The notes under the pieces were generated by a model. That model worked only from the letters and a program-made list of their open reading frames with translations, ran no database searches and was not told the DNA's origin. A DNA stretch of 64,000 bases from Pratylenchus scribneri (lineage: Eukaryota; Nematoda; Chromadorea; Rhabditida; Pratylenchidae). Position 1 is the stretch's first letter; each line of letters begins with the position of its first letter. Positions 21,105 through 43,386 of the stretch are shown piece after piece. The position numbers and the translations under genes are program-made. The stretch covers positions 310,001 through 374,000 of the forward strand of contig JAQSEB010000060.1 of the NCBI GenBank assembly GCA_030063045.1. Direction: 5' to 3'.

Positions 21105-21201
21105 TGGCATTTCCGAATTTATGCAAGCATCCATCAATCTGCATTACTCCTTTTTGCCGAATTCCAATTGAATCAGTGTTCTCATTGCCAAGTCAATTGC
21201 C
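21105..21201 (-). pseudogene. SPRY paralogue D, 3' remnant left of the giant transposon
   Basis: On the minus strand this is the second half of the SPRY exon corresponding to gene A exon 5 (NTDSIGIRQKGVMQIDG...). It is cut on the right by the transposon at 21202 and on the left by fusion to unrelated upstream-block sequence, so the last SPRY exons are absent. Reading from the right half at 42593-42647, the frame meets a TGA at the insertion site where gene A has sense codons, suggesting it was already disabled before insertion. Confidence 0.75.
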
Positions 21202-21780
21202 ACGACTACATCACTATTAATGTAGCATTTTTACTTTTTCGTTATTTTGTTTCCCCTTTGCTAGCAGCGACTGCCTATTGGCCATTCCCGAGGCGAGCGG
21301 CCATTTTGCAGCGGGAGAGGGTCCGCCAGCCGCCGCCCTCGGCTCGCCGCCCCGGACTGATAAGAGGGAGAAAGGGAGGAAGGGGTAAAGGAGGAAGGAA
21401 GAAAGAAGGAAAAAGTTCGAAAATGCCTGAGGCAAAGTTCCAAACTTAAAACTTGGCATCCAATAACTTTTTACCCACTGAGCCATTTTTGCCCATCAAT
21501 ACCTTATTCTAAAGGTCTTTCACTGGAGAATCACACGGGCATTAATTTAAATTTAATTTAGAAAAAAATATATTTTTAAGGTTTTAGAAAGTTTAGGGAG
21601 GGAAATGAAAGGATAAATTAGTTTAAAAAAGTAAATTTACTCAATAAATAATAAAAATGAAATTTGAACCTTACGATTATTGATGCAGTAAACAAAAGTA
21701 CTTTCGATTTCTTCCTACCTTCCCCTTACCCACTGCCCCTGCACCCTCCCAGCCCCTTATCAGTTATTGACAACTGATTC
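21202..21780 (+). repeat. Left terminal inverted repeat of the giant transposon
   Basis: Matches the reverse complement of about 42009-42592. The outer ~200 bp are essentially identical and the inner part diverges by scattered substitutions and small indels. It contains a strikingly GC-rich island (about 21285-21360) followed by a purine-rich agggaggaagg tract, unlike the AT-rich surroundings. Open frames inside are mirrored in both ends and look incidental. Confidence 0.85.
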
Positions 21781-21957
21781 CCGAAATGGAAAATAAAAAG
21801 TAAAATGGGTGAAAATTAGGGGATTGTATAGTGAATAATTGAATCGGAATAAAACGCGTTATAAATTAAATAAATTTAAATATGGAATTTAGTAAAAAAA
21901 AAACTGGAATTTACTAAAAATATATAAATTTAGCTCAGTTGAAGAAAATATTTGTTA

Positions 21958-22451
21958 TCATTGGCTATATCTGCACCCTTCTCCTTCACATTTGCATTTT
22001 AAATTCTTCTTTGCTGACCACCAACCATCGCCATAGTCTATTGTAATCTCTTCGCTCTAAATTTATAATTTTATTCATTTCCCGAATTTATTTCTTCAAC
22101 CTTTTCTATTGGCCTCAAGGAAAAAAACAGAATATGGGGCATCTCGTCTACTGTCATTACTACTTCACTGAAGCAGTTGGGGTTGCAAGAATGATTGACG
22201 AAACGGGCTAAATTGCCCATACTGTAGGCATCGATAAAATATTTTTGTCCTTTCTAAATTTACGAATTTTATTTTATTAAAATAGCTAAATTTACAAAAG
22301 CAAATTCGAATATATATGAATCATTTTTTCCAACGTAATCCTTTTCCAACATTAACATACCGCTATATTCAAATAAAGCAGTATTAGTTTCAATTTTATT
22401 TAAAGTCCGCAGTCCCCATCCTTTGGGCCCATGGAATACGTGAAAGTTCAT
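21958..22451 (-). CDS. Compact SET-domain protein methyltransferase carried by the transposon
   Basis: Three exons on the minus strand (22451-22296, 22253-22101, 22056-21958) joined by 42- and 44-bp GT-AG introns give a 135-residue protein. It is essentially one SET domain: KGWGLRTLNKI near residues 10-20 (SAM-binding GxG strand), FEYSGML, FIDAYSMGNLARFVNHSCNPNC near 58-79 (the signature NHSCxPN pseudoknot), FFSLRPIEK, ITIDYGDGWW (catalytic Tyr region), then a short post-SET-like KCKCEGEGC. All family-defining residues are present. The enzyme class transfers methyl from S-adenosylmethionine to lysine, usually on histones; the substrate here is unknown. There is no pre-SET or targeting domain. 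An ORF extends upstream from a TTG, but the first ATG in frame begins just before the domain. Position 180 bp inside the left TIR makes it the outermost gene. Copy at 53229-53722. Confidence 0.85.
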
Positions 22452-23146
22452 ATTGGCACATTCCAAGATTTCATCCAAATTTTGAGATGTCAAAACAAAT
22501 TAGAAATGCGTTGATTATATTATCGAGAAAAATTAATATAAATTTAAATTCAAAAAAATTATAATAACTAAAACTATATAAAAATATGCAAATTGGCTAA
22601 TTTCTTAGAGATCGAAATATATTTTCTTTAGGAAAAAGAAATAAATTTATTTAATAAATGTTCTTAATTGTAACAAAATGAGAAGTTTTTTTGTTTTGTC
22701 AATTTCATATATTTTATATCATTCATTTTATATTAAAATGTTTTAAAGAAAAAAGTTTAACCAAAAGCTACTAGTTTTAATAGATTAAAAGATTATTTTG
22801 CCATTAACCAATTTACAAAATTTATGTTATTATATTTTTAAAATACCGAAATTTCTTCCCTCGATGTCAACATCTTCATCGCATTAGGATGAACTTCAAT
22901 GAAATTGATGTATTTAAATTTGAAACTTAAAAATTTAAAAAATTAAAAATTGTATTTTCATACTTTTTTTCCAAATCCAAGATGATTTGCGACATTTTAT
23001 TGTAATCAGGAAATAAAAAAAAAGAAAAAATTCGATTATCTTTTTCTTATCAATTATCATTCGACTCAATAAAATATCAATAAACATCGAGAATATTCAA
23101 ACAATATTTTCCTTCTAAACAACTCATTCACTCTACGACAAAAATT
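22452..23146. other. AT-rich spacer between SET gene and W-rich gene
   Basis: It separates two divergently transcribed genes and so probably includes both promoters. No coding frame recognised. Confidence 0.4.
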
Positions 23147-24046
23147 ATGACAACTCGCATGGAAGATTGGACAGAGGAGAATTCTGGATGGGCCAAACCG
23201 ACATCAGTCCACTCTGTACCAATCAAAGAGGAATTGGGCAAAACGCAACAAAATGGATGGACAGTAAATGCATCTGATGGATGCGATGATTTGGACTCAA
23301 ATGTGAAAGAGAAAAAATGGAACGATTTGGAGGAAGAGTACAAAATTCACAATAGCAGCTTCGATGCCCAAAAATGGGGGACCAAAATGGAAGGAACACC
23401 AAGACCCGATGATGGTCTCATTGGATATTGTGATGGAGGATGGGGCAATAATGATTGGACTATTGTAGGAGGAAAATGGTCGACAGGGAATGGCACAATT
23501 CTGGCTGTCAGTCACATTCTCGTTTGGTCCGTCCTCTCGCATGAACAAAACAATCCAACCTATATTATGGCAAATTTGATGGACGATGGAGATGATCCGC
23601 TGCAAAGTGGATATGGGGAATTGTCAATTTCATCTGTGATTCATCAAAAGGTTTTCAATATTAAATTGGAAATTTGCAATTTTAATTCAAAACATCTAAA
23701 AATAGTTTTTAGAATCCAAAAAAAATTTCCTAATCTTTGCTTATCTAAAAAATTATCTCCCCTTGGTGGGATTCAAACCCATTCTCTTCCCAAACTCAAC
23801 CACAAAAAAAAAATGATTTCTTATTAAAATATTATAATTCAGCTTGGAGCTGTCGCTGAACCCTCTGGCTGCTGTTTTTCCACCCGAATGCCAGCAAATA
23901 TTGTGCTCAATGAATTTTCCAATTTAGGGTCAATATATTAACCTTATTTTAATTAATTTTTTAAAATAAAATGCAGCTATCGTGCAATTGGAATGGTCAA
24001 CAAACGAACGGATGAAGTGCTTTGGACATTGGCAAAGAATAATTAA
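23147..24046 (+). CDS. Unrecognised Trp/Asp-rich protein, three exons, in transposon
   Basis: Exons 23147-23650, 23843-23928 and 23977-24046 join in frame to a 219-residue product. I do not recognise the family. The first ~100 residues are acidic and Trp-rich (MEDWTEENSGW, GYCDGGWGNNDW). The second part is more globular (IVGGKWSTGNGTILAVSHIL, YIMANLMDDGD, AIGMVNKRTDEVLWTLAKNN). No signal peptide or membrane helix. It starts with a good aaaattATG context and lies divergently to the SET gene. It could be a structural or accessory protein of the element; that is inference. Retention of frame over two introns supports function. A second copy is at 54418-55317. Confidence 0.6.
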
Positions 24047-24263
24047 TTTCAATAATTGATTTTGTTTAGTTTTGGAGGATTGATTATTTGAATTTAGATT
24101 TTTATATCATTTATTATTTATAATTAATTCAATTTCCATGATTAAAAACCTTATTTTGCATGACCATATTTAATTTTTTTGTATATAAATCTCTTGGCCA
24201 ATAAATTGGTCATTTTAGACTTATGCCAAATATACCTTTTAATAATTAAAATTTAACAAAAAA

Positions 24264-24422
24264 ATGGATTTTCCAGAGACCCATTTTGCACCAAATTGCC
24301 AACCAAAATTTGCCCTAAATTATCAAAATAAAATGCAATTGACATTTGAGGTGAAGGAGAAGAAGGGAAAACGGCAACCACCACCGTCCACAAGCATTCG
24401 TCCTCTGAGATATAACGAATGA
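24264..24422 (+). CDS. Possible 52-residue basic proline-rich peptide
   Basis: An aaaaaaATG start leads into a 52-codon frame (begins MDFPETHFAPNC, ends RPLRYNE) with a lysine-rich centre and PPPSTS. The opposite strand also carries a 72-residue open frame here (24253-24471). Which strand, if either, is coding cannot be settled from sequence alone. Confidence 0.25.
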   Translation: MDFPETHFAPNCQPKFALNYQNKMQLTFEVKEKKGKRQPPPSTSIRPLRYNE

Positions 24423-24639
24423 ATATATGATTTGAGGATGTACATTCTTCAAAATATCCCTGAGAATGCAATAAAATTACAAAACAATATTTAATAAAAA
24501 TTTATTATTCACATTATTTTTTATTACCTTTATTAATAGGCATTGATAAGATATTGGGGAAAAAAAAAGTTAACCACAAAAATAAATAAAAAATTTTCCT
24601 CTTGGTCATAAAACTCATTTTTCCCATTTTCCCATAAAT

Positions 24640-25170
24640 ATGATTGCTACCGAAGAACCCCCTCTTTACCATTCCCAAGAAATCTGGGATTTTGCATGTA
24701 AAATCCGGGATGAAAAAGATCTGAATGAATGGTGCCAACAAATGGGCGGAATGATTGTTGGCATGGAGGAAAAATTGACTCGACAATTTCAATGCCCTAA
24801 TAAAAAATGCCAATTCAAAGCAATTTTTCTCAAATCATGTTCAAATGTTTACACCATAAATAAACACAATCATCGAAATTATCGAATGAAAGAAATGGCC
24901 GAAAAATTGCTCGCCAAAGGAATTGGTGCTGTTGAAACAAGTCAACGAATGAAAGCGAAATTTGGCGATTCATCGCCCACAATTTGTACAATTTATAGAT
25001 GGAAAAAGGATTTTCATCAAAGACAAGCAAATTTTCATATCGTTTTAAAAATTTTATTCATTTTAAAGCGAGAGCATGAACAAAAAGGAAATGATTTGTT
25101 GGAGGAAAGTCACAGAAAGGCGAAAATACCGAGAAAATCATCGGATTGGCCTTCGAGCCCATTGCGGTGA
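24640..25170 (+). CDS. C4HH zinc-finger/helix-turn-helix-like protein in transposon
   Basis: A single-exon frame of 176 residues. Around residues 50-80 it has QFQCPNKKCQFKA...INKHNHR, a C-x4-C...H-x-H pattern of the WRKY/GCM/FLYWCH type of zinc finger common in transposase-derived DNA-binding proteins. It is followed by a predicted helical segment (MKEMAEKLLAKGIGAVETSQ, then PTICTIYRWKKDF) that looks like a helix-turn-helix. No catalytic transposase domain follows, so it may be a DNA-binding regulator or the N-terminus of a longer spliced gene (a GT donor overlaps its last codons). DNA binding is inference. Copy at 55911-56441. Confidence 0.5.
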   Translation: MIATEEPPLYHSQEIWDFACKIRDEKDLNEWCQQMGGMIVGMEEKLTRQFQCPNKKCQFKAIFLKSCSNVYTINKHNHRNYRMKEMAEKLLAKGIGAVETSQRMKAKFGDSSPTICTIYRWKKDFHQRQANFHIVLKILFILKREHEQKGNDLLEESHRKAKIPRKSSDWPSSPLR

Positions 25171-25284
25171 ATTTTAAGATTGCAAAATTTATTTAAATAT
25201 TTATTTACTTTTTAGTCGCTCAAATCGAGGCAAAACATTGCCCGCCTCAAATCGAGGCAAATCATTGCCCGACTCAAGCAAATT

Positions 25285-25700: not shown

Positions 25701-25744
25701 ATAGTCGCTCAATTCGCGTTCCAAAACCAATTTGCTGTTTAAAT

Positions 25745-27345
25745 CAGGGCTGCCATAATACCGGGGAAACCCGGCATTTCCCGGGTTTTTGATGTCCCGG
25801 CCGGGGTTTTGCCGGGGTTTTGAAAGTGCCGGGTTTTTTGCCGGGTTTTTCATATTTTGCCGGGTTTTGCCGTGTTTTTAAATTTTTTTAAATGATTGCC
25901 AAAAATTGAATATTTATCCAACATTTTCTAATCTCTCACTTCATATTTTTCTTTATTTTATCATCTATTTCTATATTTTAGCTATCTGTTCTATCAATCA
26001 CATAAAAATGGGAATTTCTTCCTGCTTGCTTATATAAATTAAATTTTTTGGGCAGAGGCAAATCGCAAATTAGAAAGCAAATAAATATTTACTTTAACTT
26101 ACTTAAATATTAATGTGAATTTTCTTAACTTTATCAATAAACATAAAGATCATCTATTGATTTTTGCAGAAAAATGGCGCAAAAACAATCAAATTTACTT
26201 AATTTCGTTCGGAATATTTCGATTTCAGCAACAAATTCTGAAAAAACAACTGAGCAAAATGAAGAAGAAGCGATTTCCGAGGCTGAAGAAGTGCAAGAAA
26301 TTGAAATGAACAGTGAAAATGACGATGTAAATAAATCACAAAAAGTTAGTAAAAAATTTTAAATATATTCAGAATAAATTTTTAGGATTTATCTCCACCA
26401 AAAAAGAGAAAGAAGTCGCATCGAAAACCCGGAAGTGGGTATTCAAAATTTTTACCAAGTTATGCTAATCCGGAAGAAACAATTGAAGCAAGCAAAAAAG
26501 GAAGCGGATTTTTTTATTGCAAAGCTTGTAACGCTGATTTAGCTTTAAACAAAAATGGTGATAAGTTTATCAAAGAACATTTGGCAACAAAAAAACACAA
26601 AGATCACATTTCTGATTTTCGAAAAAATCAGCCAATTAATCATTTCATCAAGAAAAGAACGGTTTATTTTGTTCATAAAAAATTAAAAATTAAAATAATT
26701 AAAGGAAGATGAAGAAAAAAGCATATTGCTAACAGAAATTTTGATGGCTTTCCATTCCGGCGCTCACAATTTTTCTATGCGATATTCAAACTGTACTAGT
26801 GAATTGCTTCCAAAATTGTTCAAACAAGCAGAGGATTTTGCAAGCGCGAGGACCAAAACAACCGCAATAATTAATGGTATAATTTTTACCAAATATTAAA
26901 ATTGAAAATAGTTATTTTAAGGAGTGATTTATCCGTTTTTGCAACAACGTTTTTTACAAGCAATAAATGAAAATGGCGGTTGGTTCTCCATAGGAATTGA
27001 TTCGACAGAAATGCAAAAAACACGATTCCATGCAATCGTGATAAGGTTTGATATCAAAATTTTAAAAATATATGTTTTTATTTAGATATTTTGATATTCA
27101 AAAAGGAACAAAACAACGTTTGCTAAAAATTGTGGATGAACCCAGCGAGAAAGCGGTTGATATGGCCAATTTTCTGAAGCAAATTTTGATTGAAAATGGG
27201 CTGGAATTGACAAAAATGGCGGCACTTACGGCCGATAATACAAATGCGAACTTTGGAGGAATCCAGCGGAGGGGGCAAAACAATTTGTTCTTTTTGTTAA
27301 AACAAGGTATTTTTAATAAAAATTATCTATTTTTGCTTTAAAAAA
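25745..27345 (+). mobile_element. 5' half of an hAT-type transposon nested in the giant element
   Basis: The left end begins cagggctgccataataccgg, the usual CAGGG start of hAT inverted repeats, and is followed by a remarkable ccggg/gggtttt-rich stretch to about 25880. The transposase frame follows, but the sequence passes into unrelated genes after ~27345 and no matching right inverted repeat (ggcagccctg) was found. The copy is therefore truncated at its 3' side. Confidence 0.7.
26174..27305 (+). pseudogene. hAT transposase, N-terminal part only
   Basis: Five exons join in frame: 26174-26344, 26386-26661, 26705-26876, 26922-27045, 27086-27305. After an acidic lead there is a BED/U1-like zinc finger (FYCKACNADL...EHLATKKHKDH), then the first part of the RNase H-like core with an Asp in GIDSTEMQKTRFHAIVI and a second in ALTADNTNANFGG. 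The rest of the catalytic domain and the C-terminal hAT dimerisation domain are missing. The intact splice sites and frame over five exons suggest a recent truncation. It lies in the same orientation as the zinc-finger gene upstream. Copy at 57445-58576. Confidence 0.75.
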
Positions 27346-27465
27346 TGTTAAGACAAATTGATTTTATGGAATTCATAATGTAATTTTCCCTCAAAAAATG
27401 TAATTTAAAATCGACTTTCAATCAACAAAAATTCGAAAATACATTTTTGCTTTCAGCATCTAATC

Positions 27466-28860
27466 TTATACAAAAATAGATAAATCAAAATAAAAATCTG
27501 CCATTACCGATAATAAAACAGTGGCAGTGGAAAATGTTGTTGTTGCTGAGTCAATCGATAATTCACATGATGAATTCCCATTATTATTTGCCGTGAACAA
27601 ATCGATTTTCAACCTCTCAATTTCACTTATTTTCAATTCCAATTCTGAACGAAGTGACGAGAGCTGGTCATTTTTTTGTTCAATTTCCTCAGACAATAAT
27701 TTCCTTTCTTTTTGAATTTTGGCATCGATTTGATCATTCGGCTCACATACTGTAAGTAATTTAGGGTAATTAATAAAAATGAACTTTTAGATCATATAAT
27801 TATGCATATTGATGTCTATTAAATCTATTATTAATTATAAAAATATTATTTTCACCCACCAATATGACCTTTTGTCAAATTGGTTTGGCCATTGAATTCA
27901 CCCAACAGATGGCCATTTTTCTCAACTAGGCCATTTCGATTTGCACTGGACACTTCCTCCTTCAATTTTCCAATTTTAGCTTCACATTCCATCTCATTTG
28001 CATTGGCCATTTCCTTCTTCATTTTTTCTATTTTCAACTCATATTCTTTCGCACATGCATTGGCCATTTCCTCCTTCATTTCCACAATTTTCACCTCACA
28101 TCCCTTATCATTTACGATGGCCATTTCCTCGCTTTTTCCATCCCTTTGGTCATTTGATGGCCTAACTGAAAGTGAATAAATTACAGAATGTTTATTAAAT
28201 AAGTAAAATAAAATACTTTCTTTTCTGATTATATATTACATAAGATTGAAGTCTAATTATTTTAATAAAATATTATATTTACAAACTAATATTTGCATTT
28301 GTCAAATTGTTTGAACCATTCAATTCGCCAAGCAAATGGCCATTTCTACAATATTGAGCATTTCGATTTGCACTGTCCACTTCCTCTTTCAATTTGCCAA
28401 TTTTAGCTTCACATTCCTTCTGATTTGAATTGGCCATTTCTTCCTTCATTTTTCCAATTTTCAACTCATATTCCTCTTTCATTTTGCCAATTTTCACTTC
28501 ACATTCTTCTTTCATTTTGCCAATTTTTACCTCAATTTCTTCTTTCATTTTACTAATTTCCGCTTCATATTTCTCATTGGTTTGCGCCAAAATTGATTGG
28601 TCCCCTAGGGGACCCTGTAAAAGTGAACAAAAATGGACAAAAAAATGAGTCGGGGAAAATAATACCCGATGGCAAAGACAAAGACTGGGTGTGAATGTGG
28701 ATGTGAAATTTGGGAGATGAGTAAAACATACGGTTGGTTTTTTGATTTTAATTGGGGCGTAGCAATGATCAGTGAGTTTAATTAACTCAATCTGATCATT
28801 GAAAATAAATGCGAATATTTGGAGGGGAAATAAGAGAAAAATGTGGATGAAAAGATTCAT
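27466..28860 (-). CDS. Predicted secreted coiled-coil protein carried by the transposon
   Basis: Four minus-strand exons, 28860-28732, 28614-28283, 28161-27860 and 27749-27466, join in frame to 348 residues. Exon 1 (43 residues, aaaaATG context) encodes a typical signal peptide (MNLFIHIFLLFPLQIFAFIF). Exons 2 and 3 are homologous tandem modules of charged heptads (KIGKMKEE-type repeats, CEAKIGKLKEEV.SANRN) each ending with NGHLLGE.NG..NLT. Exon 4 adds another coiled coil, a Ser/Thr/Asn-rich stretch and a hydrophobic end (TVLLSVMADFYFDLSIFV) that could be a GPI-type or membrane tail. Coiled-coil composition resembles the SPRY-associated coiled coils of the host cluster, so capture of a host segment is possible. 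I do not recognise a named family. Copy at 58737-60131. Confidence 0.7.
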
Positions 28861-30977
28861 TTTTAATAAATGAACATAAATATGCTTTATTCCCCTCTTT
28901 CCCCTCCATTAAGCCTCTACCAAGATCCCAATCCATCCTTTTCTTTGCCAAGTTTCCCGATAAGGAAGAGCTAAGGGTGGAGAGGAAACGGGATCAATAT
29001 TGTAGGAAAATGTAGAGCAGCAAGCCATATGAACCCTTGTGAAATAGGAAAATTATTCTCCTCGGCCGCAAGAATGTACCAAAGAAAAAACGAAATTGAT
29101 AAGAGAGAAAATATGTCAGTTATAAAATTGAATGGGGAAAAGATGGGGTTTGTGATTTTATGGTGAAGATGAGTCTAATTTAGAATAGAAATGGAAATAT
29201 ACATAAAAATCAAAAATTATTGTTTATTTGGTCAATATGAGGAACACAATTCCCAAAAAAAAGTGATGCCCCCTTGATATAACTTTTTCATTATTGGGCC
29301 AAGGTAATTATCAAATTTGTATGAATTTTGATATTCTGTATTTTATTAAAAAATATTCAAAATACATAATGGGATAGAACAGTTTTTATATCAAATATTT
29401 TATTAATTATCATAAAAAATGCCATTTTAATCATTAATTCATTCCCGTTTTTTCTTGCTTAACAAAACTTTTTGGCAACCTTCGACTTTATATTTGTGTA
29501 AATTCATTCGAAAGGCCAAATATATTCATTCATATCATCATATTGATCAAATAATCTGGAATTAATTTTCTTTTAATCCGATTAGAGAAATATGTTTAAT
29601 TTCACAAAAACTTTCAATTTAAAATAGTAATAAGATCATCAAAATGAGTTAAGGTAAAATGGAGTTATGAAGATTAAAATTATATTTCCCTCTAATTACT
29701 CAACTGTGGTGATTATGTCCTCCAAGGCATTTTTATTGTTTCTAATTATACATGAATATAATCGTTTGGACCGTATTCTCCCTTCATTAATAAAAAAAGA
29801 AAGCATTCAAGATATTTTAAATCTTACTTCACATAGCTAATTCTTTCTTTTGGACAAGTAATAAGGCCTTCATTATTCATACCTTTTTAAACGATTATAA
29901 TTCTTCAAAGGATTGATTTTTGATAGAGTGGAAAAATGCTCTATCTCTTGATAAAAATATTTTGTAAATCTTTTATATTAATAAATTATGGGATTTAAAG
30001 AAATTTGAAAAAGGGAAATTTGGAGATGGCATCATTCTTCACTTGAATGTTATTTCAATTTCATTTAAGTCTTAAAAATTTAATAAATACACCTTCAACA
30101 AATGCCTAAAATATAATTGAATTCATCAAATTGTGACCTAAATGCCGTTAATTATATGTCAAAAATCGACGGCAATGCAACTGAATTATTGATAATTTTA
30201 TAAATATTATTATTAGTTGAAATACAGGAATAAATTAAGAAAGGAGTAAATTAAATACGAATATTAAGAATATGAATGGCTATATTTAAATTTGGCATTT
30301 TGATTGGAATTAATTGAAGAAATGTGGATAATTCATTAATATGATATATTTATTTATTTATTTCTCTTGAATGGATTGGCCCATCAAATTTGTTACTGAA
30401 ATGCTCGTCCCGAGCACACTTCCTTCTCCCTCATTCTCTTGTTATTGCTATTAATGCTCATATTTGGACCCTCAAAATTGTATGATTTAGCATTGCCATA
30501 GAAGATCCCTTTTGGAAATTAATTTATTTTTGAAAGTTAGGTAAAGAAAAAACATAGGTATGCCTCAACTTGTCCCTGTTTATTATATCTCATCAAAAAA
30601 AACTGAAATAATTTTATAATCAAATTAAAGAGAAAGCTGTTGGCTATTTAAATTGGGTAATAATTGATGAATTTGAATCTAAAAACCAAATGATATTTAG
30701 TATGGATTAACGAAATTTTCATTGTTTTTTGAGTCAATTCTGAATCAATTAAAATAAAATTAATATCCTTTGTTAGCCAACATTTAATTATTTTATTTGA
30801 TACTAAAATATTCAATAGATAAGACCAATTAAATATAATAAACGACAACAAGTTGGTCAAATAGTGCTGTTTCCCTCTTTGGTTTTGAAAATGTAAAAAT
30901 CGGGAAAAATTTAAAAAAATGATGAATAGCTGAAAACCAAACAGATGGTCAAATTCTTCCACCAATCCCCCAAAAAT
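28861..30977. other. Long AT-rich region inside the transposon without recognised genes
   Basis: About 2.1 kb with scattered small frames (for example 30648-30965 minus) lacking domains, splice-supported extension or coding-like composition. The first ~150 bp are the likely promoter of the secreted coiled-coil gene. A diverged element gene with many tiny exons cannot be ruled out. Confidence 0.4.
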
Positions 30978-31363
30978 TTATGAATATTCATTGTTGAACG
31001 TAACTTTGCCGTAATTTTTGTCAAATGAATTTTCATTCAAATCTGCCCTCTCCTCAGCATCCTCCACCATATGCTGAATTTGTTTGTATTTTGTCAAATT
31101 CATTGAGGCAATTTGTTCCTAAAATTGTAATAAATTTTCACTTTATCCTCAAAATTGAATAAATTCATTGCCTCCTCAACTTACTCTACATATTTAGGCG
31201 AGCATCGGAAAATATAAAAACCATAATTATCCAGCCTTCCCTCTTCTTTTTCCTCACAACCATTTACCTTAAATCTTTTTCTGCACAGTCCGAAAAATTG
31301 ACTTTTTACTGATAAAGATAAGGATGTGGAATGGATGGCCCAAATAAAAAAAATTGTTCCCAA
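30978..31363 (-). pseudogene. Myosin/paramyosin tail-like fragment
   Basis: The 3' exon (31118-30978) encodes 46 residues containing NLTKYKQIQHMVEDAEERAD, closely matching the end of the muscle myosin heavy chain/paramyosin rod (...KYR..QHE.EDAEERAD...). The preceding open segment (31363-31190) can be spliced in frame but has no ATG and no myosin similarity; its hydrophobic N-terminus may be chance. I read it as a captured fragment of a host myosin-family gene. A short coiled-coil gene using it cannot be excluded. Copy at 62249-62634. Confidence 0.45.
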
Positions 31364-32596
31364 AAAAGGTAATCAATTCACCCCATTACTTTTTTCCCCT
31401 AATTTCCTTTTTTTTTTATAAATCCCAGTGGCCAAAAAAAAGTTTCGCGTAAATCAAGTTTTTTTTTGCCGGCTGCCCTTTGAGGGCAGCTTTTATTAAC
31501 GGCATAAATAAAACCTCGATTTTATTCTCGTATCCCCACTTTCCACATTTTAACAAAAATTTAATTAATTAAAATTTAATTTAGTCCGCAATTTTAATAA
31601 ATTGGATAGTATTTAATTTGGATAAAAATATTCCGTGTCGAAAAAATAATCATTTTATTTTAGGCCATATAACTTGGTCAAGTCAAACTTTTTTTAAGAC
31701 TCCTTACATACCTATCCTAGCCCTAGTCCAAGCCCTAATACATACTGGCCCTAAAAACCTAATCCCCAAACCCTAGTTTGTAAGTTATAAATCAAAAACA
31801 GTTTCCGGCATTTTATCATATTCGCCAAATGCAATTTTTTATTCGTAAATTTCCCCAAAATCCCCATTTTGCATAATCCAAAAGATCATAAATGCTTTAA
31901 ATTCCATTAACTTTTCCCAATCCCAAACATCCATATTTTCCATCACATCACAATCCTCATTTTTACCACATTTTCTAAACATGAATACTTTCTTTTATGG
32001 GATAAGAGAAAGGAAAATAATAAAATGAAAATTTGGACTAAAAAAAAAAGCCAAAAGGTAATGGCCTCAAAAATAAATTAAACTAGTTCACTCAAAATCT
32101 ATCCATGTTACCGGCTTTCCATAAAAATGTTATGGCAAAAGCATCCAAACTTGGTCATAACTAATGGTCCAGCTGTATTTTTTTGCCTTCTTTCCATCCT
32201 TTTTTTTTCGTACTACCCATTTTCTATTTTATTTTTCTCTAATTCAGCACGAAGAAATAGTCTCATCTCTCTCTCTTCAACTTAAGTCTCCTAATAAGTC
32301 AATATCGATTTTCTTTCATTATATATAGCCAGCGACGCAAATCAATTACATTTATCCCTTCCTCCCATCCCCACTCGGCAAGCACCCACAGTACAAAACA
32401 CAAATACAACACAAACTATAACAAACAAATATTTCTACTAAAATTATATTTTGAATAATTCAAAATAGGTTTATTTAATATTTGATTAAATCCTTAAAAA
32501 ATTAAAATCATAAATTAATTTTATAAATGTTCCAAACTTATTTCTTGAATTTCTTATTTTCTTTCCAATTTTCATCTTCTTCACTTCCCATTAACC
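31364..32596. other. Intergenic region with hairpin and ccctaa-like units
   Basis: Contains the hairpin gctgccctttgagggcagc at about 31479-31497, degenerate ccctaa/gccctag repeats at 31715-31785, and a TATA-like stretch with CA-rich sequence (about 32320-32430) that looks like a + strand promoter/5' UTR. No clear + strand gene follows it; the 68-residue frame at 32527-32733 is antisense to a supported exon. Confidence 0.4.
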
Positions 32597-33333
32597 TCAA
32601 TAGGGGCAAAATCTACAGTTCAAAGCCCTCCGTATCCGAGTGGAACGACGTATCTGAAATATTTTCAATTATTATCTATTATTTTTTCAAATTAATTTCT
32701 CTTAAATCTTTCATCATAATTAATGAATTTTAATTTACTTGAATAGGGTTCGGGTCACCGTCCAAAATTTGAAGCATTTGCCGATAGAGCCCCTCTGCTT
32801 GGGCAACAATTCGTGCTAAAAATAAATTCATTTCTCTTCTTTCACATAATAATTTTACTATTCAAATTAAATCTATACTTACCATCATTGCACCCACGTG
32901 CTCCAAAAAGAACAAAATGGCCCAATTGTGGTCTTTCTTCTAAAAATGGAGTAAAATAGAATTAATTATATAACAATTTACCGAATTTCACGAACAACAA
33001 ACTTCCTTTTATATTGCCTCCTTGAATTTCATCCCTTTTTGTTGTCACAATCACTGGATATTCCAATGCCGGAATTTGGGCAATGGTAATTTGGTTAATT
33101 CCGCAAATTTGCGAATAACTCTTTGACGATAAAATATGAAGTTGATCAACTTCAGCAATCCCAAAAGAATAATTGACCAATTCCACAAATGAATTTATAA
33201 GACGGGGATATTCAGTTCTTTTACTTAGGTAGAGTATGTTAGACATTTTATGATTCCGTATTTTGTTAGTATAATGGTGCCTTGTTTGGAGAGTGAAGCA
33301 GCCATTTTGAATAATTGGATAAAAATAACTCAT
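32597..33333 (-). CDS. Unrecognised ~180-residue protein, four exons, in transposon
   Basis: Starting at ATG 33333, four exons join cleanly: the long first exon (to about 32980), then segments encoding RPQLGHFVLFGARGCND, ARIVAQAEGLYRQMLQILDG and the basic C-terminus IRRSTRIRRALNCRFCPY. Every junction keeps frame at GT-AG sites. The body looks globular with beta-strand character (YPVIVTTKRDE, GSLLFVKFG). The Arg-rich tail suggests nucleic-acid binding. I do not recognise a family. It lies immediately downstream of the polymerase on the same strand. Because Polintons often keep structural genes near the polymerase, a diverged structural role is conceivable but unsupported. The start of its duplicate would lie beyond the window. 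Confidence 0.6.
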
Positions 33334-33355
33334 ACACTTTAAAAGAAAGAATGAT

Positions 33356-33538
33356 TTATGTACTCAATCTTGTCCTCTTCGATCCGCCCATTTTCCTTTC
33401 CCTCATCATTTCCCGCCAACTTTTTTTTTTCATATTACCCTTTTTAGGTCTATTTATGACCGATCCAATTTGTTCTTTCCACTGTTCACTCTTTTCTCCT
33501 AACAATATCATCATTTCGGAAGTCGTGTGCCATGACAT
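33356..33538 (-). CDS. Small basic 60-residue protein
   Basis: ATG at 33538 opens a 60-codon frame (MSWHTTSEMMILLGEKSEQW...) that is strongly basic in its second half (RPKKGNMKKKSWREMMRERK). The beginning is mildly reminiscent of Myb/SANT or MADF-type helices. It sits between the polymerase and the gene starting at 33333, 22 bp away and on the same strand. A longer overlapping frame on the opposite strand (33315-33614) is hydrophobic and less credible. Function unknown. Confidence 0.35.
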   Translation of the reverse strand: MSWHTTSEMMILLGEKSEQWKEQIGSVINRPKKGNMKKKSWREMMRERKMGGSKRTRLST

Positions 33539-33770: not shown

Positions 33771-36700
33771 TCACTTTTCATATCGGGAATTCTCAAGTCT
33801 ATGAGCATTGTTAGGCTCATTCATCCAATTGTCATAATTCCCTCTATTCTTTGGGTCAGCATAATCTGACCATCCAAATGGGAGTACACGGCCATCGGGT
33901 CGGACCACTCCTTTGTTGATGATGGGCCGGGCCTTCTTGACAACTGGGACAGTGAAAATTTCACACTTCTTTGTGACTCGAAAGTTGTTATCCGGATAGT
34001 GGCATTCAATGGGTTGGACCTGCTCCCCTCTGAGATGGGCCATCAGTTGGGCCTTCATTGTCTCATGGTTCAGTTTATCGGCATTTTCACAGTCCAGAGT
34101 GAAGCCTATAAAGAAAAATTAGAGAATAAAAATTAAAATCTGATGACCTTTGGCCTTGGTTTCATATTCAATCTCTCCGCTGTTTTTATTGACCATTTTG
34201 AGGGAGTAGAGCTTTGGGGCCAGGCATATGTATTCCGTGATTATATGTTCCGGATATTGGTCTAGTAAAATCGATAATTAATTTTAAAACACCCTCTGAA
34301 ATTACCAGTTAATTCACCCAAGTGCCTCCCATCTTCAATTGGGTCGCCCAATTCCGTGTCATATTGGTAGAAAATGGAATCAGTGTCTAAGAATTTTGAT
34401 TTAACTAAATTTTTCTTAAAATTATCACCATAATAAAGAATACGGGCATCTGGTCGCTTCATGACCTTCTGCATTGCATCCAATAATTTGAGCCGTGCCA
34501 TGGATGTTGTCCTAAAATATGATTAGATAAAAATGCTAATTCAATTTACCACAAAGCCAAAATGAGATTTGAGCATCCGTGTTCGCGAACATACTCCTCT
34601 TTGGTTTTGTACACAATCATCCATATTTTCTCCGTCACTTGTTCGAAGCGTTCAATTTCGATCTTCTTGTCATTCAGATATTTTGCAATTGTGAGGTCGT
34701 CTCTTGCGTATACTGTCATCGAGAGACGATTTCGTAATGCAAAGCGACCCCAAAGGGAATTGAGAAGCCTAAAAATGAGATAAATAATCAACTTAAATAA
34801 TTTGAAATTACAATTTGGCAATGAATTTCAGTCCTGGGTTATTTTGGACATCTTCAATGGTAAATTCAATGCCGTATCGTTGCGCGGCCTCAAACACATA
34901 TTCAATTTTGGCATCTTCTTGTTGTTCCTCAGGGAGGGAAGTGATTGAAGAAGGCCATCCCTCAGCCTTATATTTTAGGCACATTATCGCTTGAATGTAG
35001 GGCTTGAAGAGGTCGCTGCTGTAATCCTTTGCAATGTCTTCGTCCCAAACATAAGATCGATAATGTTTGATGACCCGATATCTTGAATGTGAAAATTAAT
35101 AAATAAATAAAATATGAATTTATTTACCCTGCTTCCAAGGCTTTTTCCAATTCAGGCCTTGTGTAAGTTCCTTGATGCCCTCTTTCTTCATCTTCAAAAT
35201 GCGGGCAAGAATATCCCGGATCGTACAATCCATCTTTATTGGCCCGGGCACATGCCCTTTTAAAATAATATTTTTATTGAAAATTATCTTTTTATTACTT
35301 GCAAAGGCTAAAGAGCAATCGGATCTCCTTTCTTCCAACATAACGAATGGGCAGAACAGGAATATCCACATGACGAGGAGGCACAACAAAGACTTGTAAA
35401 AGCTGTTCGAAATAAGGGATGTCATCTGGCTTCGTCCAATTAACATAAATTGCAGCCCCTTCATTGACTTTGACCCATGGATGGCCAATTGGATATTCCG
35501 ATTCAAAATTGCTAAATATACAAATGTCCCTATTTAAATGATTATTTTAAAAACTTACACGGATGGATACAGGCTTTTGAAATCTTTCACTTTGATAGTG
35601 GTTTGTGGATGATCGGCATTTGCAAAAAGAATGGCCTCTCGGCTTTGATCAGCCGGGGCATTTGCAAATAACCATTCTGGGCCTGTGCGGCCCCCAACAA
35701 ATGCATCACTGAATCAGACTATTTCCAGAAAAAATTAATATGAATCTACCGCAATTTTATTGGGCCAGTATCCTCAAGATTGTCCATAAATGCTTCCATC
35801 TCTGGATTATCCTGCATTTCTCTTCGGATTCTAAAATAAATATAATAAATTATTTGGAAAGGATAGAATAAAAACTCACTGGCATTCCCATATGATCCAT
35901 AGATGCATAGTTTTCCGAATTTCCCGATGTTTTTCTAAATCCTTTTTCCAAATTTCTCCAACATTTTTGCGGCCCAAGAAGTGTTCTTCTCTTATGCCTT
36001 TATTGCAACGAGGGCATGCATGCCAGAAACTAAATAAGATTTTAAGCGAAATTCTAATCGACCTTACCATCCATTTATCTCTATTGCGATTGGCCCGCCA
36101 TCTTCCTCGTCTCTCTCAATGTAACCATCCAATTTCCACTATTTTTAATTATATTTAACATTATCCCATTTAAAATGACTGTACCTTTCCAATTTTCTTT
36201 TCGCCCTCAAAAGTGTCCGCATTCTGAATTTTGATATTCAAAGAATATTCCAGCCATTTGAGGTATTGTCGTGCCAATCCACTTGATCGATCACGTTTTT
36301 CATAGCCCATTTCTGGTGTTAGGGCCAATAAATTTTCGGGAACAAATGTGCGGAAAAATTTCATGGCACCACTCTATTTTATTATCAAAATATGTATAAA
36401 TAATCCAAATTAATTACGGAAAATGTAATGAAGCGGGTATTGTCCAACCCTGTGGCATGCATGAATATTTCCCGCATTTTGACAAAGCCATGGGCAAGAA
36501 TTTCCACAACGGATTTGCAATAGGCTGCCAATGCTTCATTTAATTCAAATCTAAAACAATTAGTATTGAAAATCATTTTAACTTTACCTTGTATTATAAT
36601 TGTTCTGATGCCATGCTTGAACTTTTTCAGCCTTCTTTCGCATCATTCCACGAATGCAATAGTAATCCAAACTGGGTAGATGGTCTTGTGCTGTGTTCAA

Positions 36701-39700
36701 ATTCTCCTCCTATAATTAACCAATTATTTTTTAGTACAAATATTACCTTATTAAATTTGTAGGGGAAATTTTCCTTCCCTTCTACCCCTGGAATTTCCAA
36801 TTTGAAGGTTGACACAAATGCCTCCAATTTAATTGGGATTAAATGATACCTTAAAATTTAAATATTTTTTTAAAATTTCCAAGTAACTTACGTGTCACGG
36901 AAAATTGTCGGTGTGACGACACCGCGACGCCGAACTTGAATTTGGTAAAATCGCTTTCCTTGCATAATCACTTTTGGGCAAAAGCCCATTTGAAAAAGTT
37001 CAAACATTGAAAAAACCTGAAAATTGATAATTAATTTTTTAAAATTATTTCTTACATGATCATATTTCTGGCCATAATGCGCATAGACGTAGGTCACAAT
37101 TTCCCTCTTATTTCGTCTTTCCAGTCTTTTCTTCTTTTTCTCTTCTTCTTCTGCGAATTTCCTTTTTATTTCCTCTTCTTTTCTGGCCTCTTGCTCATCC
37201 CATGGAATAATGCCTTGTGCCCTCATTCGTCCCTCAGATTGGACCCAGACTTTTTCAAGAATTTGCCGGTCGGTCATCGAGTTTGAAGAGCACGGTTGGT
37301 CCATTGATGGAGAATTTGATTGCTCAATTCGTTCAAAGAAGCCCGAATTCAAATAGGGATTTGGAGGCAAATCCTCATTTTCATCCATTTCAATATCATC
37401 GTCAATAAATTCCCTGTCAATTGTGGATTCTTCATCTTCATAGTCGGAATTTTCGGCTTCCTCTCCACTTTCATCGGCTTCAAAATCAATAAATTGATTG
37501 GATTGACGACGGCATTTATCCTTCTTGTTGGCATTCCTTCGAGCCATTGTTTTGGATTTGTGATTGTTTTTTGGTCCTAATAAGAAAATAATAAGTACTA
37601 GGCAAATTGGATTAGCTACCTTTCTTCTTTTCTGGATTCTTTTTCCAAAATTTGAGAAGCCATTGAACAAAATCCTTGATTGGCGTTGGAGTCACAAATT
37701 TGACAACAAAATCGGTCTTTGTAAAATCGCCCACACACCATGAGAAGGAACGATATTTGCCGCATATTTTGCAATCATTATCCAACTTTTTGTCCCAAAT
37801 TTTTTCCTTTAGGCACATTGTGCAGAAGACAATGGCCCAGATGAAATTGACCTAAAACCATTAAATAATTAATAAAAAAAACGATATTTACCTGATGCTT
37901 GAAACGGGCAATATTTGGCTCAGGTTTCAAATCTGTTGTTGTTTCCACATCATACATGACAAATCGGCGTTCCGGCCCTTCTTCATATTCAAATGGCTTT
38001 ATGAAGCAGGGACGAGGTCCGTGGTAGGCTAAATAAATTGTTTGTTAACTAATAAAAATAATTTACCTTTGCATCTTCGACAATGTCGATTCCCACATTT
38101 ATGTTTATTTCCATTCTTTTCTTGCTGTGAAACCACATATTTGTCTCCACATTCTATGCACAACACATGCTTCTTGCAGACACTTTTTGATTGCCCAAAT
38201 TGAGTGTTTCTTGTCCTCTTATGCTCATCGAAGCAATCTTGAGAGACGAATGTTTTGTGGCAATCAATGCACGAAATTGGGTCCATTCCATCGGGGCGGC
38301 ATCCTCCACTATGTTTAATTCCAACCTAAGAATAAATTAAATTAAATTTTTAATTGTATGCAGACTCGGGCACATTCCCGGCATTTGAAACCACAATTCC
38401 AATCATGTTGAAAGGCATCTGCGATAGGCATCAAGCACTAAAAAAAATTGATAAAGAAATTAAATATTAAAAATGACCCCAAAATCATAGATTTTCGATT
38501 CTCCAAGTAGTCGGCCGGGGTAGAATATTGGCTCGTAGTGGCCCCCATTTTCATTCTCTGTGTAGAGAACACAAAGCTCCTCTTGTTCATATTGTTCATT
38601 TTTGCTGGCCCAGAAGGGCTAAAAGAACATAAATAAATAATAAAGAAAAAGATTTACCTTCAATTCACCAATTTCCGGGAAAGCAAAAAGCCGAAATTGA
38701 TTTGGATGCTTTGCTTGATAATATTCCCAAATTTTTTCACCCCATTCTTCGACGGAATAAGTTCGCAAATTTCTTGGAATTCCACATTCAATCATTAAAG
38801 TGCGTATATCCTTGGATTGGCGTTTTTCGTTGTTCTTATATTTGTAAAATTGATCTCTTTTCATAATTGCACGGTGACGAAGAATCTCAAAACATCGGAA
38901 TAAGCAGTAATTATCGTTGTTTTCAATTTCCATTATAGCATCCAAATTAATGTTATGGCGAAATCTGATGGGCCCTCCTGTTCCCGGATGTCGTTTTTGC
39001 TTTTTCTTGCCCATGTTAAATAGTTGTTGGCGGCCTCCATTCCATAATTCAATCGCCAAAATATCGATCTCAAAGGATTGTAAAGTCAGCGAATCTTTGT
39101 GGTGTTTCAGCATTCCGGATTGGTCGATTTTGATGAACCAATTTAATAAGATATCGGTGATGTCGTTGTTGATTTCATGCACATGAAGATTTTTAGAGCT
39201 GTCCATCAATTCAGAGTTCAAACCCACAATATAATGCTGCGGCTTGAATCCTTTCTGGCGGACGGTATTTTGAAGGCAATCCACCATTTTGCTGAAAATT
39301 GCCTTAATCCGTTCTTCAGGGTAGTTAAATTGAAGTTGTTCAACCAAAATATTAAGAAGAAGGAAAATGCCTTTGATTCGGATAGCTGTAAATTTTTATT
39401 TTGCCATTTAATTCTCTTAAACCCACCTTTGTAGAATCGGCCTGCATTAGCTTCACCGATTGATAAGCATTCCCAGCCGGGGCCATCGAAATCTCGCGGG
39501 TCAAGCGGAGCATTCGCCGGGAATAGGCGACGTCTCGTTGCTTTTGCCCGATCCAGCTTTCGCCTGATTTTCCCATGCCCCACTTGAACATATTTTACCT
39601 GAAAAATTAATGCTAAATATTTTGTTCGAAATTTATTTTTTAATTTATTGATGAAATTTATCTGCAATATATTTCAAAATTTATATATATAAAAATTCAC

Positions 39701-39899
39701 TTACCTTCGAGGGCATTTTAGGCGTCGAAGGAGTTTCGTCATTTATAATTTCCAATTCCCCATTTTCATCATCCATATTCACATTTCGAGGTGTTAAAAC
39801 AGCTAAATCCATATCCACATTGCCATTTTGGGGAGTTAAAAACGAAGTATCCATGTCCACATTATCATTTTCAGGTGTTAAAACATTGTTTTCTTCCAT
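33771..39899 (-). CDS. Protein-primed family B DNA polymerase (Polinton/Maverick type)
   Basis: Roughly twenty exons on the minus strand, from ATG 39899 to the stop at 33771-33773. The N-terminal exon has three LTPxNxNVDMD repeats. Then come the Polinton-type N-terminal region (about 38658-39385), Cys-rich segments (FKCRECARVC; CIDCHKTF...CKKH.LCIECG), exonuclease motif YDVETT (~37945), an exonuclease-II-like AHYGQKYD (~37060), RDTYHLIPI, the polymerase motifs DFKSLYP (~35575), NSLWGRFALRN (~34740) and YYDTDSIFY, and a C-terminal APKLYSLKM region. The catalytic DTD motif is formed only after removal of a 42-bp intron (34387-34428) that can also be read through. A very acidic/charged ~190-residue exon (37060-37570) separates the two exonuclease motifs. 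All key catalytic acidic residues seen are intact. The enzyme would replicate the element using a protein primer. Confidence 0.9.
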
Positions 39900-40395
39900 T
39901 TTCAATTATTTTTGAAGATTTGAATAAATTATTTTCTAAAAATTAATACGTTTAAATTAAAGAACAAAAAACACCTAATTATGATATGGGTTATATTATT
40001 TATATAATTATTTATTATTTTTATTTAAATTGAAAATATTGCTTTAAATTAATTTAATCTCTTTAATTTCATCCAAATAAATTTCGTAATAAAATGATGA
40101 CTGACACTAAATCGTACAATTCATTCAAATGCATAAAAATGTATTCAATTCCCTATTTTAGCCGCCGGATTTTTTTTACAAGATCCCCGTTTTGTCTAAT
40201 ATCATTTTTTTGTTCCTTTTTTTCCGAAAACCACAATTTATCAATTCCGGCGGCGTGTTCCCAAAAGTGCAATGACCAAATTGCAGGGGGGGGGGTAGTT
40301 AAATGTAAAATGACGAATGGGTTTGTGAGGGCAATTGATAAGAGGGAGAGCACGGGTGAGGGGCATGGGGAGGGGTCCGTTCAACCCCTTACCAC

Positions 40396-40635
40396 CGATG
40401 ACGAAATCGGAGAAGCGTCGGTTTTTATCGATTGTTCGATGATGAAATCGGAGAAGCGTCGGTTTTTATCGATTGTTCGATGACGAAATTGACGTCGGTT
40501 TTTATCGATTGATTGTTCGATGACGAAATTGGCGTCGGTTTTTATCGATTGATTATTCGATGACGAAATTGGCGTCGGTTTTTATCGATTGATTGTTCGA
40601 TGACGAAATTGGCGTCGGTTTTTATCGATTGATTT
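40396..40635. repeat. ~51-bp tandem repeat array
   Basis: Five units of the type cgatgacgaaattggcgtcg followed by gtttttatcgattgattgtt. The first two have the variant gaaatcggagaagcgtcgg. The last three are nearly identical. They are the closest structured DNA upstream of the polymerase gene. Confidence 0.8.
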
Positions 40636-40784
40636 TTAAGTGACACATTCTTTTTAGGCAGTGTACAAAGTACAAACTACACCCATTTAGGGAAAAGGGT
40701 TATGATGAAATAAGAATGGAAGGGTTTAGGATGAATCATCCTTTATGTACAGTATGTCAATTTTCCTTTCCATTTTTTCTTTTC

Positions 40785-40905
40785 GTGATTGAGTACGGAG
40801 GGACTCCTCCATTCCTCTTTTAATTTCGATTGAGTACGAAGGGACTCCTCCATACCTCTGTTAATTTCGATTGAATACGAGGGGCCCTCCATTTCTTTCC
40901 TACTT
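40785..40905. repeat. Three ~50-bp repeats with palindromic cores
   Basis: Three diverging units of tttcgattgagtacgaaggg followed by actcctccat; each includes an inverted gagggactcctc-type core. A distinct array from the one at 40396-40635, although both contain cgattga. Confidence 0.65.
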
Positions 40906-41302
40906 TCGATTGAAAAATGCTTCGAAAGTGTATCATTGAAATGACTCATCTTTTTTTTTACTCATCTATTTTTAGAAACAATGTCCCCTCATTTGATTGA
41001 AATATGTGTCATCTATTATGAATCCATTAGATTAGGGATCGCATCACAATAAATATAATTTAATAGGTAAAGTAAAAGACAAATAGATAAAAGTATAAGG
41101 TTCACGTGACATGCACGTGTTTATCACGTGCATTAGTTAATTAAGACTCAAAAAATATTATAATGACAATTAAACCTAAAATCAAATATCAATCCAGTAT
41201 ATTCAATAATTGTTTTTTATTTTCGTAAAATTCAAAATTTTTAAAAATTAATTACATTCATTTAGAAAATTGGTTATTAAATATTATCATTAAATTGTAA
41301 TA

Positions 41303-41814
41303 ATGCTGACAAATTGCCCTGTTCAGATATATAATCCAGAAAATACACCTAAATATGTTAAAGAAGGTTTAATAAGCTTCTTATTTATGATCTTATTTCT
41401 CATACCAAGTAATGGCCGAATGCAATTTTAATGTTCTGGAAATGTATTTTTATGAGAAAGGAAAATGGGATGATCAACCATATATGAAAGAGATTTATCA
41501 ATTGGATGGCGGCCAAGTGGCCAAAAATAGCTATATGCCTATGAGTACTGGTATTCGGACTTATTTTTATGGATATGGAGAAACTCTTAAAGAAGTGGTC
41601 AAAGGTTATTCAAATACGTATTTGTTTATAAAAGAATTCTTCAGCATTAAAAAGGGAGAGGCATAAGAATTGTGGCAAAGTGATCAATTTCTGGTATAAG
41701 CCTGGACAACATATTCCTCATCAGAAAGAAATCTTTTTGGTAGGCGGGAAAGATGAAGAAGAAGAGAAGAATATTAGAATGGATATTGAATTGGAACAGG
41801 AATTTGATTATTGA
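41303..41814 (+). CDS. Unrecognised ~145-residue protein, three exons, in transposon
   Basis: ATG 41303 opens a short exon (MLTNCPVQIYNPENTPKYVKE). An intron of ~43 bp leads into VMAECNFNVLEMYFYEKGKW...YGYGETLKEVVK, and a 45-bp intron ending at 41643 joins ALKRERHKNCGKVINFWY...QEFDY with the stop at 41812-41814. Without the second intron the frame would end after 84 residues at 41666. The protein is aromatic-rich in the middle and acidic at the end (GGKDEEEEKNIRMDIELEQE). No family recognised. Three CACGTG sites lie ~170 bp upstream. It is the rightmost gene, just inside the right TIR. Confidence 0.5.
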
Positions 41815-42008
41815 ACAAAAGAATATACATATATTTTATCATACGTTTAAATTATTACAAAAATGATTAAATTAAATAAAAATTTTTCGGTTATCATTCT
41901 TTAACTTGATTATATTTTTATACTCATCTTTTTCTTTTTAATCCATCATCCTAATTTCCATTTTCACAATTCATAATTTTTCTTCAATCTTTTTAAATTC
42001 CAATTTAT

Positions 42009-42592
42009 TGAATCAATAGTTGATAAGGAATGGGTGCAACAAGGAAAGGGGGGCAGGGGTAAGGGGAGGGAAGGAGGAAATCAAATGTCCTTTTGTTTAT
42101 TGCATCAATAATCGTAAAATTCAAGTTTCATTTTTAATTATTTATTGAGTAAATTTACTCTTTTATTAAACTAATTTATTCTTTCATTTCCCTCCCTAAA
42201 CTTTCTAAAACCTTAAAAATATATTTTTTTCTAAATTAAATTTAAATTAATGCCCGCGTGATTCTCCAGTGAAAGACCTTTAGAATAAGGTATTGATGGG
42301 CAAAATTGGCCCAGTGGGCAAAAAGTTATAGAATGCCAAGTTTTAAGTTTTTGGAACTTTGCCTCGAGCATTTTTGAACTTTTTCCTCCCTTCTTCCTTC
42401 CTCCTTACCCCCTTCCTCCCTTTCTCCCTCTTATCAGTCCGGGGCGGCGAGCCGAGGGCGGCGGCTGGCGGACCCTCTCCCGCTGCAAAATGGCCGCTCG
42501 CCTCGGGAATGGCCAATAGGCAGTCGCTGCTAGCAAAGGGGAAACAAAATAACGAAAAAGTAAAAATGCTACATTAATAGTGATGTAGTCGT
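42009..42592 (-). repeat. Right terminal inverted repeat of the giant transposon
   Basis: Reverse complement of 21202-21780. It contains the same GC-rich island (about 42435-42510) and ends with gtgatgtagtcgt at 42592, followed by the ATTGCC duplication. Inner-part substitutions relative to the left repeat show the two have drifted since insertion. Confidence 0.85.
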
Positions 42593-43386
42593 ATTGCCTT
42601 CTAATGGAAAATGTTTTCCGCAAAATCCAATGACAATGCCAGCATTGCTAAAAACATTATTTTATTTATTTATCAATTTTTAACAAAAATAAATTAAATG
42701 TGAATTAGAGAGCTTCGATTTTCAATTTTTTTCGATCGATGTTTGATTTCGAGAAATATTTTGACGCAGCGAAATTTCGTTTTTCGATTTCAAAAAATTT
42801 TTTTGAGTCATCGAAGATATCCCACTGGTGTGAATTATTTTTATAAGTTAATTTTTAAGCAAAAATATTATATTTATAATTTCTAATATAAATCCAAATT
42901 AATTACCAATTTTGCTTGCTGATGAGAATTTCCATTTCAAAGTAGAATGCAATTGTCGATTTATTTTTTCTCCGAGAATTTAATCCCGGAATGGGCATAT
43001 TGGCAAGAACAATGTTTGTACCTTTAAAAATAATTTGATTTTTATTCCATTTTCCATTATTTTTACCATTTGGGCCAGAATGCTTGGCAATTAATTCTTT
43101 CCTGGAAATTGTTAATTTTGGCCCAAATTTCAAATGCGATTTATATTCATTGGAATTATATCTTGCCCATTGAATCCCATCAATTATTTTGGTCAAAAAT
43201 GGCAACTGAAATTTTGTTAGAATATTTATTATTTTACTTGAACTTTCCCTAATAAAAAATTGTTAAATTGATGTTGATTTGGGAATTGTAAAAAGGCACG
43301 AAATAAATAATACCAGACGAGACATCCGAAAAATCGGATTCATTCAGCTCATCCTCAATCATAAATGCACTATTATTTGGATCCAT
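42593..43386 (-). pseudogene. SPRY paralogue D, 5' part right of the transposon
   Basis: Minus-strand pieces in family order: an exon 1 remnant from 43386 (MDPNNSAFMIEDELNESDF), then directly SPRY exons 43207-43067 (IQWARYNSN...HSGPNG), 43022-42907 (IVLANMPIPG...IAFYFEMEIL) and 42647-42593 (AGIVIGFCGKHFPLEG), where the transposon begins. The entire coiled-coil exon is missing. Together with 21105-21201 this is one broken SPRY gene separated by 21.4 kb. Confidence 0.75.

Follow-up and report, generated by a model that had tools for sequence, protein, structure and literature searches.

Transposons of the Maverick/Polinton family are characterized by long terminal inverted repeats (TIRs) and a 6-bp target-site duplication (TSD), together with a protein-primed family-B DNA polymerase, a retroviral-type integrase and genes for capsid, ATPase and protease. 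The closest described systems are nematode Mavericks, which are presented in part of a meeting report (Widen, Burga laboratory; PMC10680173) as virus-like transposable elements with a DNA polymerase that have a putative fusogen as well as cargo genes. As far as the sections concerned go, a survey of transposable elements in plant nematodes places Maverick among the widespread superfamilies (PMC11118728), and 23 Maverick polymorphisms are given for Meloidogyne incognita (PMC8288018). For Pratylenchus, the word Maverick is absent from the main text of the P. scribneri genome paper (PMC10138993), and no description of such elements appears in titles or abstract openings among the matches listed, a scope that leaves most subscription literature outside. 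Here we describe an element at positions 21196–42598 of a 64,000-nucleotide stretch of the P. scribneri assembly (the window; contig C60, 310001–374000; assembly of 227,248,964 bp in 276 contigs). Other C-numbers are contigs of the same assembly, and element copies are named by their contig. The initial annotation correctly had a nematode as host, and it reported a complete Polinton/Maverick-like transposon. The element is a derivative of this family rather than a complete member. It keeps both ends and DNA polymerase B (PolB), the integrase/capsid module of its sisters was not found as far as the searches reach, and other DNA amounting to about 12 kb, host-gene-like segments among it, stands in the module's place. 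We consider it probable that it is a non-autonomous, PolB-carrying Maverick derivative. It thus resembles the nematode Mavericks of the meeting report in being a virus-like element with a DNA polymerase, and cargo genes are reported there as well. It differs from them, as far as they are described in that report, because no integrase or capsid was found in the window copy, its PolB gene is apparently split by introns, and its host-like DNA is another set, namely a gene adjacent to ribophorin II and a coiled-coil gene.

The two ends are well defined by repeat comparison and alignment. The left TIR occupies 21202–21739 (plus strand) and the right TIR 42050–42592 (minus strand), and each terminus abuts a copy of ATTGCC (21196–21201 and 42593–42598), which is the direct repeat originally annotated. 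By blast the TIRs share 94.1% identity across 544 aligned bases, and a global alignment has 519 identical columns among the 554 compared; their length is about 540 bp, rather than the approximately 580 bp first given. A search of the source genome with 581 bases of the left end gives 26 matches. Sixteen ends were examined elsewhere, and the terminus is ACGACTAC in fifteen of them and ACGACCAC in one. Five other two-ended copies have perfect 6-bp TSDs, each with its own sequence: TCCAGT (C97), CATATT (C41), TAAATT (C4), CATTTG (C72) and GATATG (C79). With the window element counted once, a 6-bp TSD is therefore present in six of seven two-ended structures of the family, which exceeds what chance would give. 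These observations show that the element inserted as one unit with formation of a 6-bp duplication, and the assignment to Polinton/Maverick holds on the basis of the TIRs, the TSD, PolB and the ends of the same type in sister copies. The exception among the seven is a pair of short TIR ends 16 bp apart (C64:1448552–1448786), which has no TSD. Its right flank is, by eye, the reverse complement of the left flank of C260, so that C260 may be another version of the C64 locus; C260, C175 and C205 have no usable end pair. TIR divergence was also considered as an insertion clock, and was dropped: the window TIRs differ by 6%, yet C97 combines a perfect TSD with TIRs that are just 79% identical, which means that the two TIRs of an element can already differ when it inserts.

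The insertion interrupts an exon, of which the left part lies at 21099–21195 and the right part at 42599–42652 (approximate end), both on the minus strand and not joined. Each flank was used as a separate query for an empty site, which gave at least 61 and 66 matches (best 40 of 178 and best 40 of 366 candidates, respectively). Two places in C21, here C21a and C21b, hold both flanks adjacent to each other without the element, and neither matches the TIR over its first 299 bases. These are paralogous sites, whose allelism with the C60 locus is not proven. The left flank (21099–21201) agrees with C21b at 102 of 103 positions and with C21a at 101 of 103, while the right flank is 80–81% identical to both across 211 columns, and by eye 58 of its first 60 positions agree. 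At C21b the matches of the left and right flanks overlap by exactly six bases, which constitute a single ATTGCC. Paralogues within the cluster are likewise collinear across the insertion point, exactly so at 45090–45228 and within six bases for the others compared (7838, 11688 and 18576 in the window, and two in L011). The original description of exact ends within a gene exon, whose halves become collinear with paralogues once the element and one ATTGCC are removed, is thereby borne out.

At C21a there are seven extra bases, a second AATTGCC, exactly at the insertion point (L063, C21:649700–650100, positions 145–158). This arrangement fits an excision footprint (TSD, one TIR base, TSD), and equally a plain 7-bp slippage; the mechanism of Maverick excision was called unknown in 2010 in the part of that paper concerned with it (PMC2836005). 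In the flank search the interrupted exon has numerous relatives, which places it in a family represented on C60, C21, C194 and elsewhere. The annotated SPRY gene is thus an interrupted member of a multigene family, but its SPRY identity is weak. A four-exon profile has just two PDB matches (E 0.72 and 0.76), both to ‘truncated secreted SPRY domain-containing protein 15’; a genome search with Pfam SPRY gives 15 matches, none on C60, and none of seven cluster exons scanned matches SPRY. The proposal of an effector cluster is unsupported, in that two exons resembling first exons, which start with MDPNNS and MDQNTI, have no obvious signal peptide by eye.

The PolB gene lies at 33864–39395 on the minus strand and is apparently intron-split. 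It contains DFKSLYPS, NSLWG and LDTDS, which we take to be PolB motifs A, B and C. Seventy stop-to-stop open frames are listed, and 20 of these were first scanned with Pfam; a single PolB match was found, which is weak and below cut-off (34549–34827, PF03175, E 0.0044). A genome search with PF03175 (E up to 10) gives at least 206 matches, several per frame, many of them in single frames of 800–1500 aa (best 72 of 318 candidates), while one of 14 control genomes matched, below cut-off. Three PF03175-positive frames were compared with the element, and all three align in order along the minus strand, the stray non-collinear matches having E values of 0.05 or worse. Of the three, L056 (from another family; 1326 of 1392 residues compared) aligns best, running from residue 24 at position 39320 to residue 1313 at position 33903, with E values down to 1.8e-55. 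The annotated DNA polymerase B is accordingly supported over nearly its full length, and it would be of the protein-primed type.

Thirteen PolB segments were fixed by collinearity with L056 and compared with each of the seven copies that align (2 to 13 segments per copy; C260 has no PolB and was excluded). The dN/dS ratio is 0.080–0.096 in all seven comparisons, versus 0.94–1.77 for an antisense control on the same segments, and at the level of codon changes this shows PolB to be under constraint across the family. An earlier set of ten exons gave barely different ratios (0.07–0.11), and was dropped because these exons had been chosen as open and well conserved, so that the lack of stops was built in. 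Across 893 codons, the window’s own branch since C175 has 21 silent changes and 11 that replace an amino acid, counted at sites where C4 and C72 agree, or about 0.5% per replacement site (11/2142). Even if all of these changes followed the insertion, the insertion looks fairly recent, bearing in mind that parsimony undercounts.

Sister copies C41, C4, C72 and C79 share with the window element the TIR termini, the 6-bp TSD and PolB (79–92% nucleotide identity by piece), but differ in having a 12-kb module beyond PolB that was not found in the window element as far as searched. This stretch of about 12 kb is common to these four and C97 at roughly 86–98% nucleotide identity, with gaps in C72 and C97. 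Ten frames of C41 were scanned with Pfam at E 0.01. One matches the rve integrase (E 3.6e-11), another matches a chromo domain below cut-off (E 2.3e-4), and a third has a DJR-like capsid match (E 0.0034) next to a slightly better one to PH_trem (E 0.0025), both below cut-off. The other seven have no match at this threshold, although at a looser one a frame among them weakly resembles an Ulp1/adenain-type protease (Peptidase_C48 and C5, E about 0.02) and its PDB matches include cysteine protease S273R (E 0.18) along with two unrelated chains. The C41 ATPase was assigned by eye.

When 60 frames of C41 were compared with the left half of the window element (21.8–33.6 kb), none matched below E 0.006, and the sole match at E 0.006 is a frame antisense to the integrase gene; as a positive control, 50 of the 60 match C79 at 1e-10. 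Among these frames, those of the capsid/ATPase/protease module have no counterpart in the window element. A genome search for integrase likewise gives no match in the element among the best 150 of 378 candidates, a list that reaches down to 37% identity, and in which the C60 matches (122624 and 676745) fall outside the element. Integrase is listed there for C41, C4, C79 and C97 and not for C72, and so one copy of class A (the full-module type) also seems to be without it. As far as these searches reach, the integrase/capsid module is absent from the window element, which for this reason cannot be called complete as it had been. We regard it as improbable that the left half is instead an unrecognized module from another Maverick lineage, with genes that have diverged strongly, making the element autonomous, a reading favored by frames of 194 and 247 aa that have no Pfam match over cut-off (the latter being in part a host-like exon) and by a 133-aa frame (32965–33363) weakly similar to C79 near its TIR (E 4e-7), and opposed by the integrase search and by the left-half parts that are identified as host-like or transposon sequence.

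These parts are among the DNA that stands in place of the module. At 23486–24404 (plus strand) is a host-gene-like segment with introns that reaches into a ribophorin II exon, recognized by similarity to C37, C1, C2 and C76. The scanned frames at C37 and C2 have FLYWCH/BED exons, then the gene that the segment resembles, then ribophorin II, and C1 and C76 match these loci over 1.4–1.6 kb of DNA. Because its intron DNA is partly conserved, the segment probably arrived as DNA rather than cDNA. In the host-like exons the window differs from the host loci by dS 0.30–0.38 and dN 0.034–0.042, versus 0.10–0.25 and 0.004–0.012 among the host loci themselves, which points to a source outside the four assembled loci, either a homologue that was lost or not assembled, or a different lineage. 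Dating of the capture by replacement changes was dropped, since by eye about a third of the changes lie at the 5' edge of an exon, in a stretch of doubtful homology. One exon frame of a host locus was compared with PDB and had uninformative matches only, at E 0.11 or worse. The 194-aa frame follows at 24586–25167 (plus strand), and then a hAT-like transposon (25745–27354, plus strand) with the terminus CAGGGCTGCC (labeled by eye), which is 98–99% identical to copies at C42, C176, C93 and C13 and lacks its right end. Coiled-coil gene fragments at 27821–28908 (minus strand) form an 81% repeat pair and are related to a frame in C19 (38–44% aa identity). A derivation of this cargo from the neighboring SPRY/coiled-coil cluster is unsupported: the segment matched the C19 frame and not the neighbors, with no match to frames of at least 40 aa from window 1–21201 or 42593–47600 (E 1e-3). 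Two segments further on (31204–31352 and 31846–32024, with a repeat found elsewhere between them) are common to C175 at 75–80% nucleotide identity. Outside C60 this is their sole match (best 40 of 959 candidates), with none in the class-A stretches, and in C175 the counterpart of 31846–32024 directly follows the PolB end. Other stretches of the left half match short repeats at 65–84%.

C175 and C205 match the window element in the PolB half (79–95% nucleotide identity by piece, mostly 87–94%), and C175 has the two left-half segments in addition. They differ from the window in that C205 is cut by a contig end and C175 is rearranged, with left flanks that differ from each other and from that of the window. 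Where they overlap, C175 and C205 are 99.9% identical, and since their left flanks differ, this suggests that class-B elements moved recently. In the class-B element of C175 (543930–561000), PolB is interrupted by 6.9 kb, and a PolB piece follows a second TIR of the same orientation; the element is rearranged or nested. In C97 (2400–20090), a single TSD encloses a left end and module of class A together with a right end of class B, and the right 2 kb of C97 and part of its PolB match the window at 89–93%. C97 was probably inserted as a hybrid, because the TSD is perfect despite TIRs of 79% identity.

Taken together, these comparisons show that a Maverick/Polinton of an apparently intron-containing family inserted in one piece, in an exon that belongs to a multigene cluster of SPRY-like type. 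In the scheme that we propose, PolB and the TIRs would serve to copy the element by protein priming, the integrase of sister elements would have inserted it in trans, and mosaics would form by recombination between elements, as C97 suggests. The locus with its element would then have been tandemly duplicated, or the duplication produced by assembly.

This last step concerns a 31,271-bp repeat in which the first copy (16320–47590) holds the whole element and the second (from 47591 to the window end at 64000, running on to about C60:388861) has the left part of the element from 52473. As the element and its flanks recur 31,271 bp downstream, the TIR at 52473 stems from the same insertion in its duplicated form. 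The precise boundaries initially proposed hold, but the tandem duplication of element and flanks had been missed. Either one insertion was later duplicated with its locus, or the repeat is an assembly artefact. There is a substantial chance, somewhat short of even, that the arrangement is partly an artefact of assembly from low-input HiFi reads, above all in this duplication, which would be compatible with a non-autonomous derivative. The two copies differ at just three positions (16412, 38238 and 45065), and the genome paper, in the part bearing on the assembly, gives 7 kb as the mean read length and counts 41.4% of BUSCOs as duplicated (PMC10138993). On the other side, the same 6-bp duplication is found at both ends and the empty site exists in C21b, and therefore the insertion itself looks real.

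Several points weigh against the reading of the element as a non-autonomous derivative that lacked the module when it inserted. The window PolB has seven stop codons in three of its 13 segments (1125 codons), so that the gene may not be intact. The hAT-like insert breaks off at 27354, and hence some deletion in the left half followed its arrival; beyond the tandem duplicate, no second copy of the whole left half is found (best 40 of 601 and best 40 of 959 candidates), and with these two points part of the loss could be post-insertion. In addition, if a capsid or integrase gene were strongly diverged and spread over short exons, the searches could have missed it, and C175 and C205, for the reasons given above, are not informative on whether integrase is lacking in their lineage. 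The stops compare with 34–83 in the other five frames of the same segments and 0–7 in the PolB frame of family copies, and since the three segments concerned are among those with a match longer than the corresponding L056 stretch, the stops may sit in introns that the alignment ran through.

The same observations bear on whether a complete Maverick inserted here and then lost its integrase/capsid half through deletion and nested insertions, leaving a decaying fossil. The truncated hAT-like insert, the several short repeats of the left half, the lack of a second left-half copy, the tandem duplicate aside, among the matches listed and the stops, if these lie outside introns, would all fit. We nevertheless think it unlikely. 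The segments at 31.2–32.0 kb are common to the separately placed C175 element, and so that part probably predates the window insertion; the few PolB replacements leave little time to lose 12 kb and gain 12 kb; and the host-like exons are at dS 0.30–0.38 from all four host loci.

If the element is a non-autonomous derivative, a further step, which we put forward tentatively, is that P. scribneri has a Maverick subfamily of PolB-only elements, with host genes substituted for the virion and integrase module. Such elements would copy themselves by their own means and borrow integration, perhaps packaging also, from complete relatives. If true, this would be a satellite relationship inside one transposon family, as well as a route for host-gene shuttling. 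Because this genome combines exact ends and an empty site with module-bearing sisters, it allows a direct look at the helper/satellite question for Mavericks, namely which genes are obliged to travel with a Maverick and which may be provided in trans. The host-gene-like segments, like the hybrid C97, also inform how nematode Mavericks gain cargo.

The remaining features are minor. Tandem repeats of about 40 bp occupy 40396–40667 (plus strand), and small open frames at 41391–41811 (plus strand; function unassigned) are kept in other family copies, the first of them at 94% to 47% aa identity. These frames are near the TIR in the window element and mid-element in class A. Genome-wide, at least 150 integrase matches (E up to 1e-10), together with the PF03175 matches given above, amount to a heavy Maverick load. 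C63 and C138 have three integrase matches each at exact spacings of 20,144 bp and 38,409 bp, respectively, which represent head-to-tail Maverick arrays or assembly repeats.

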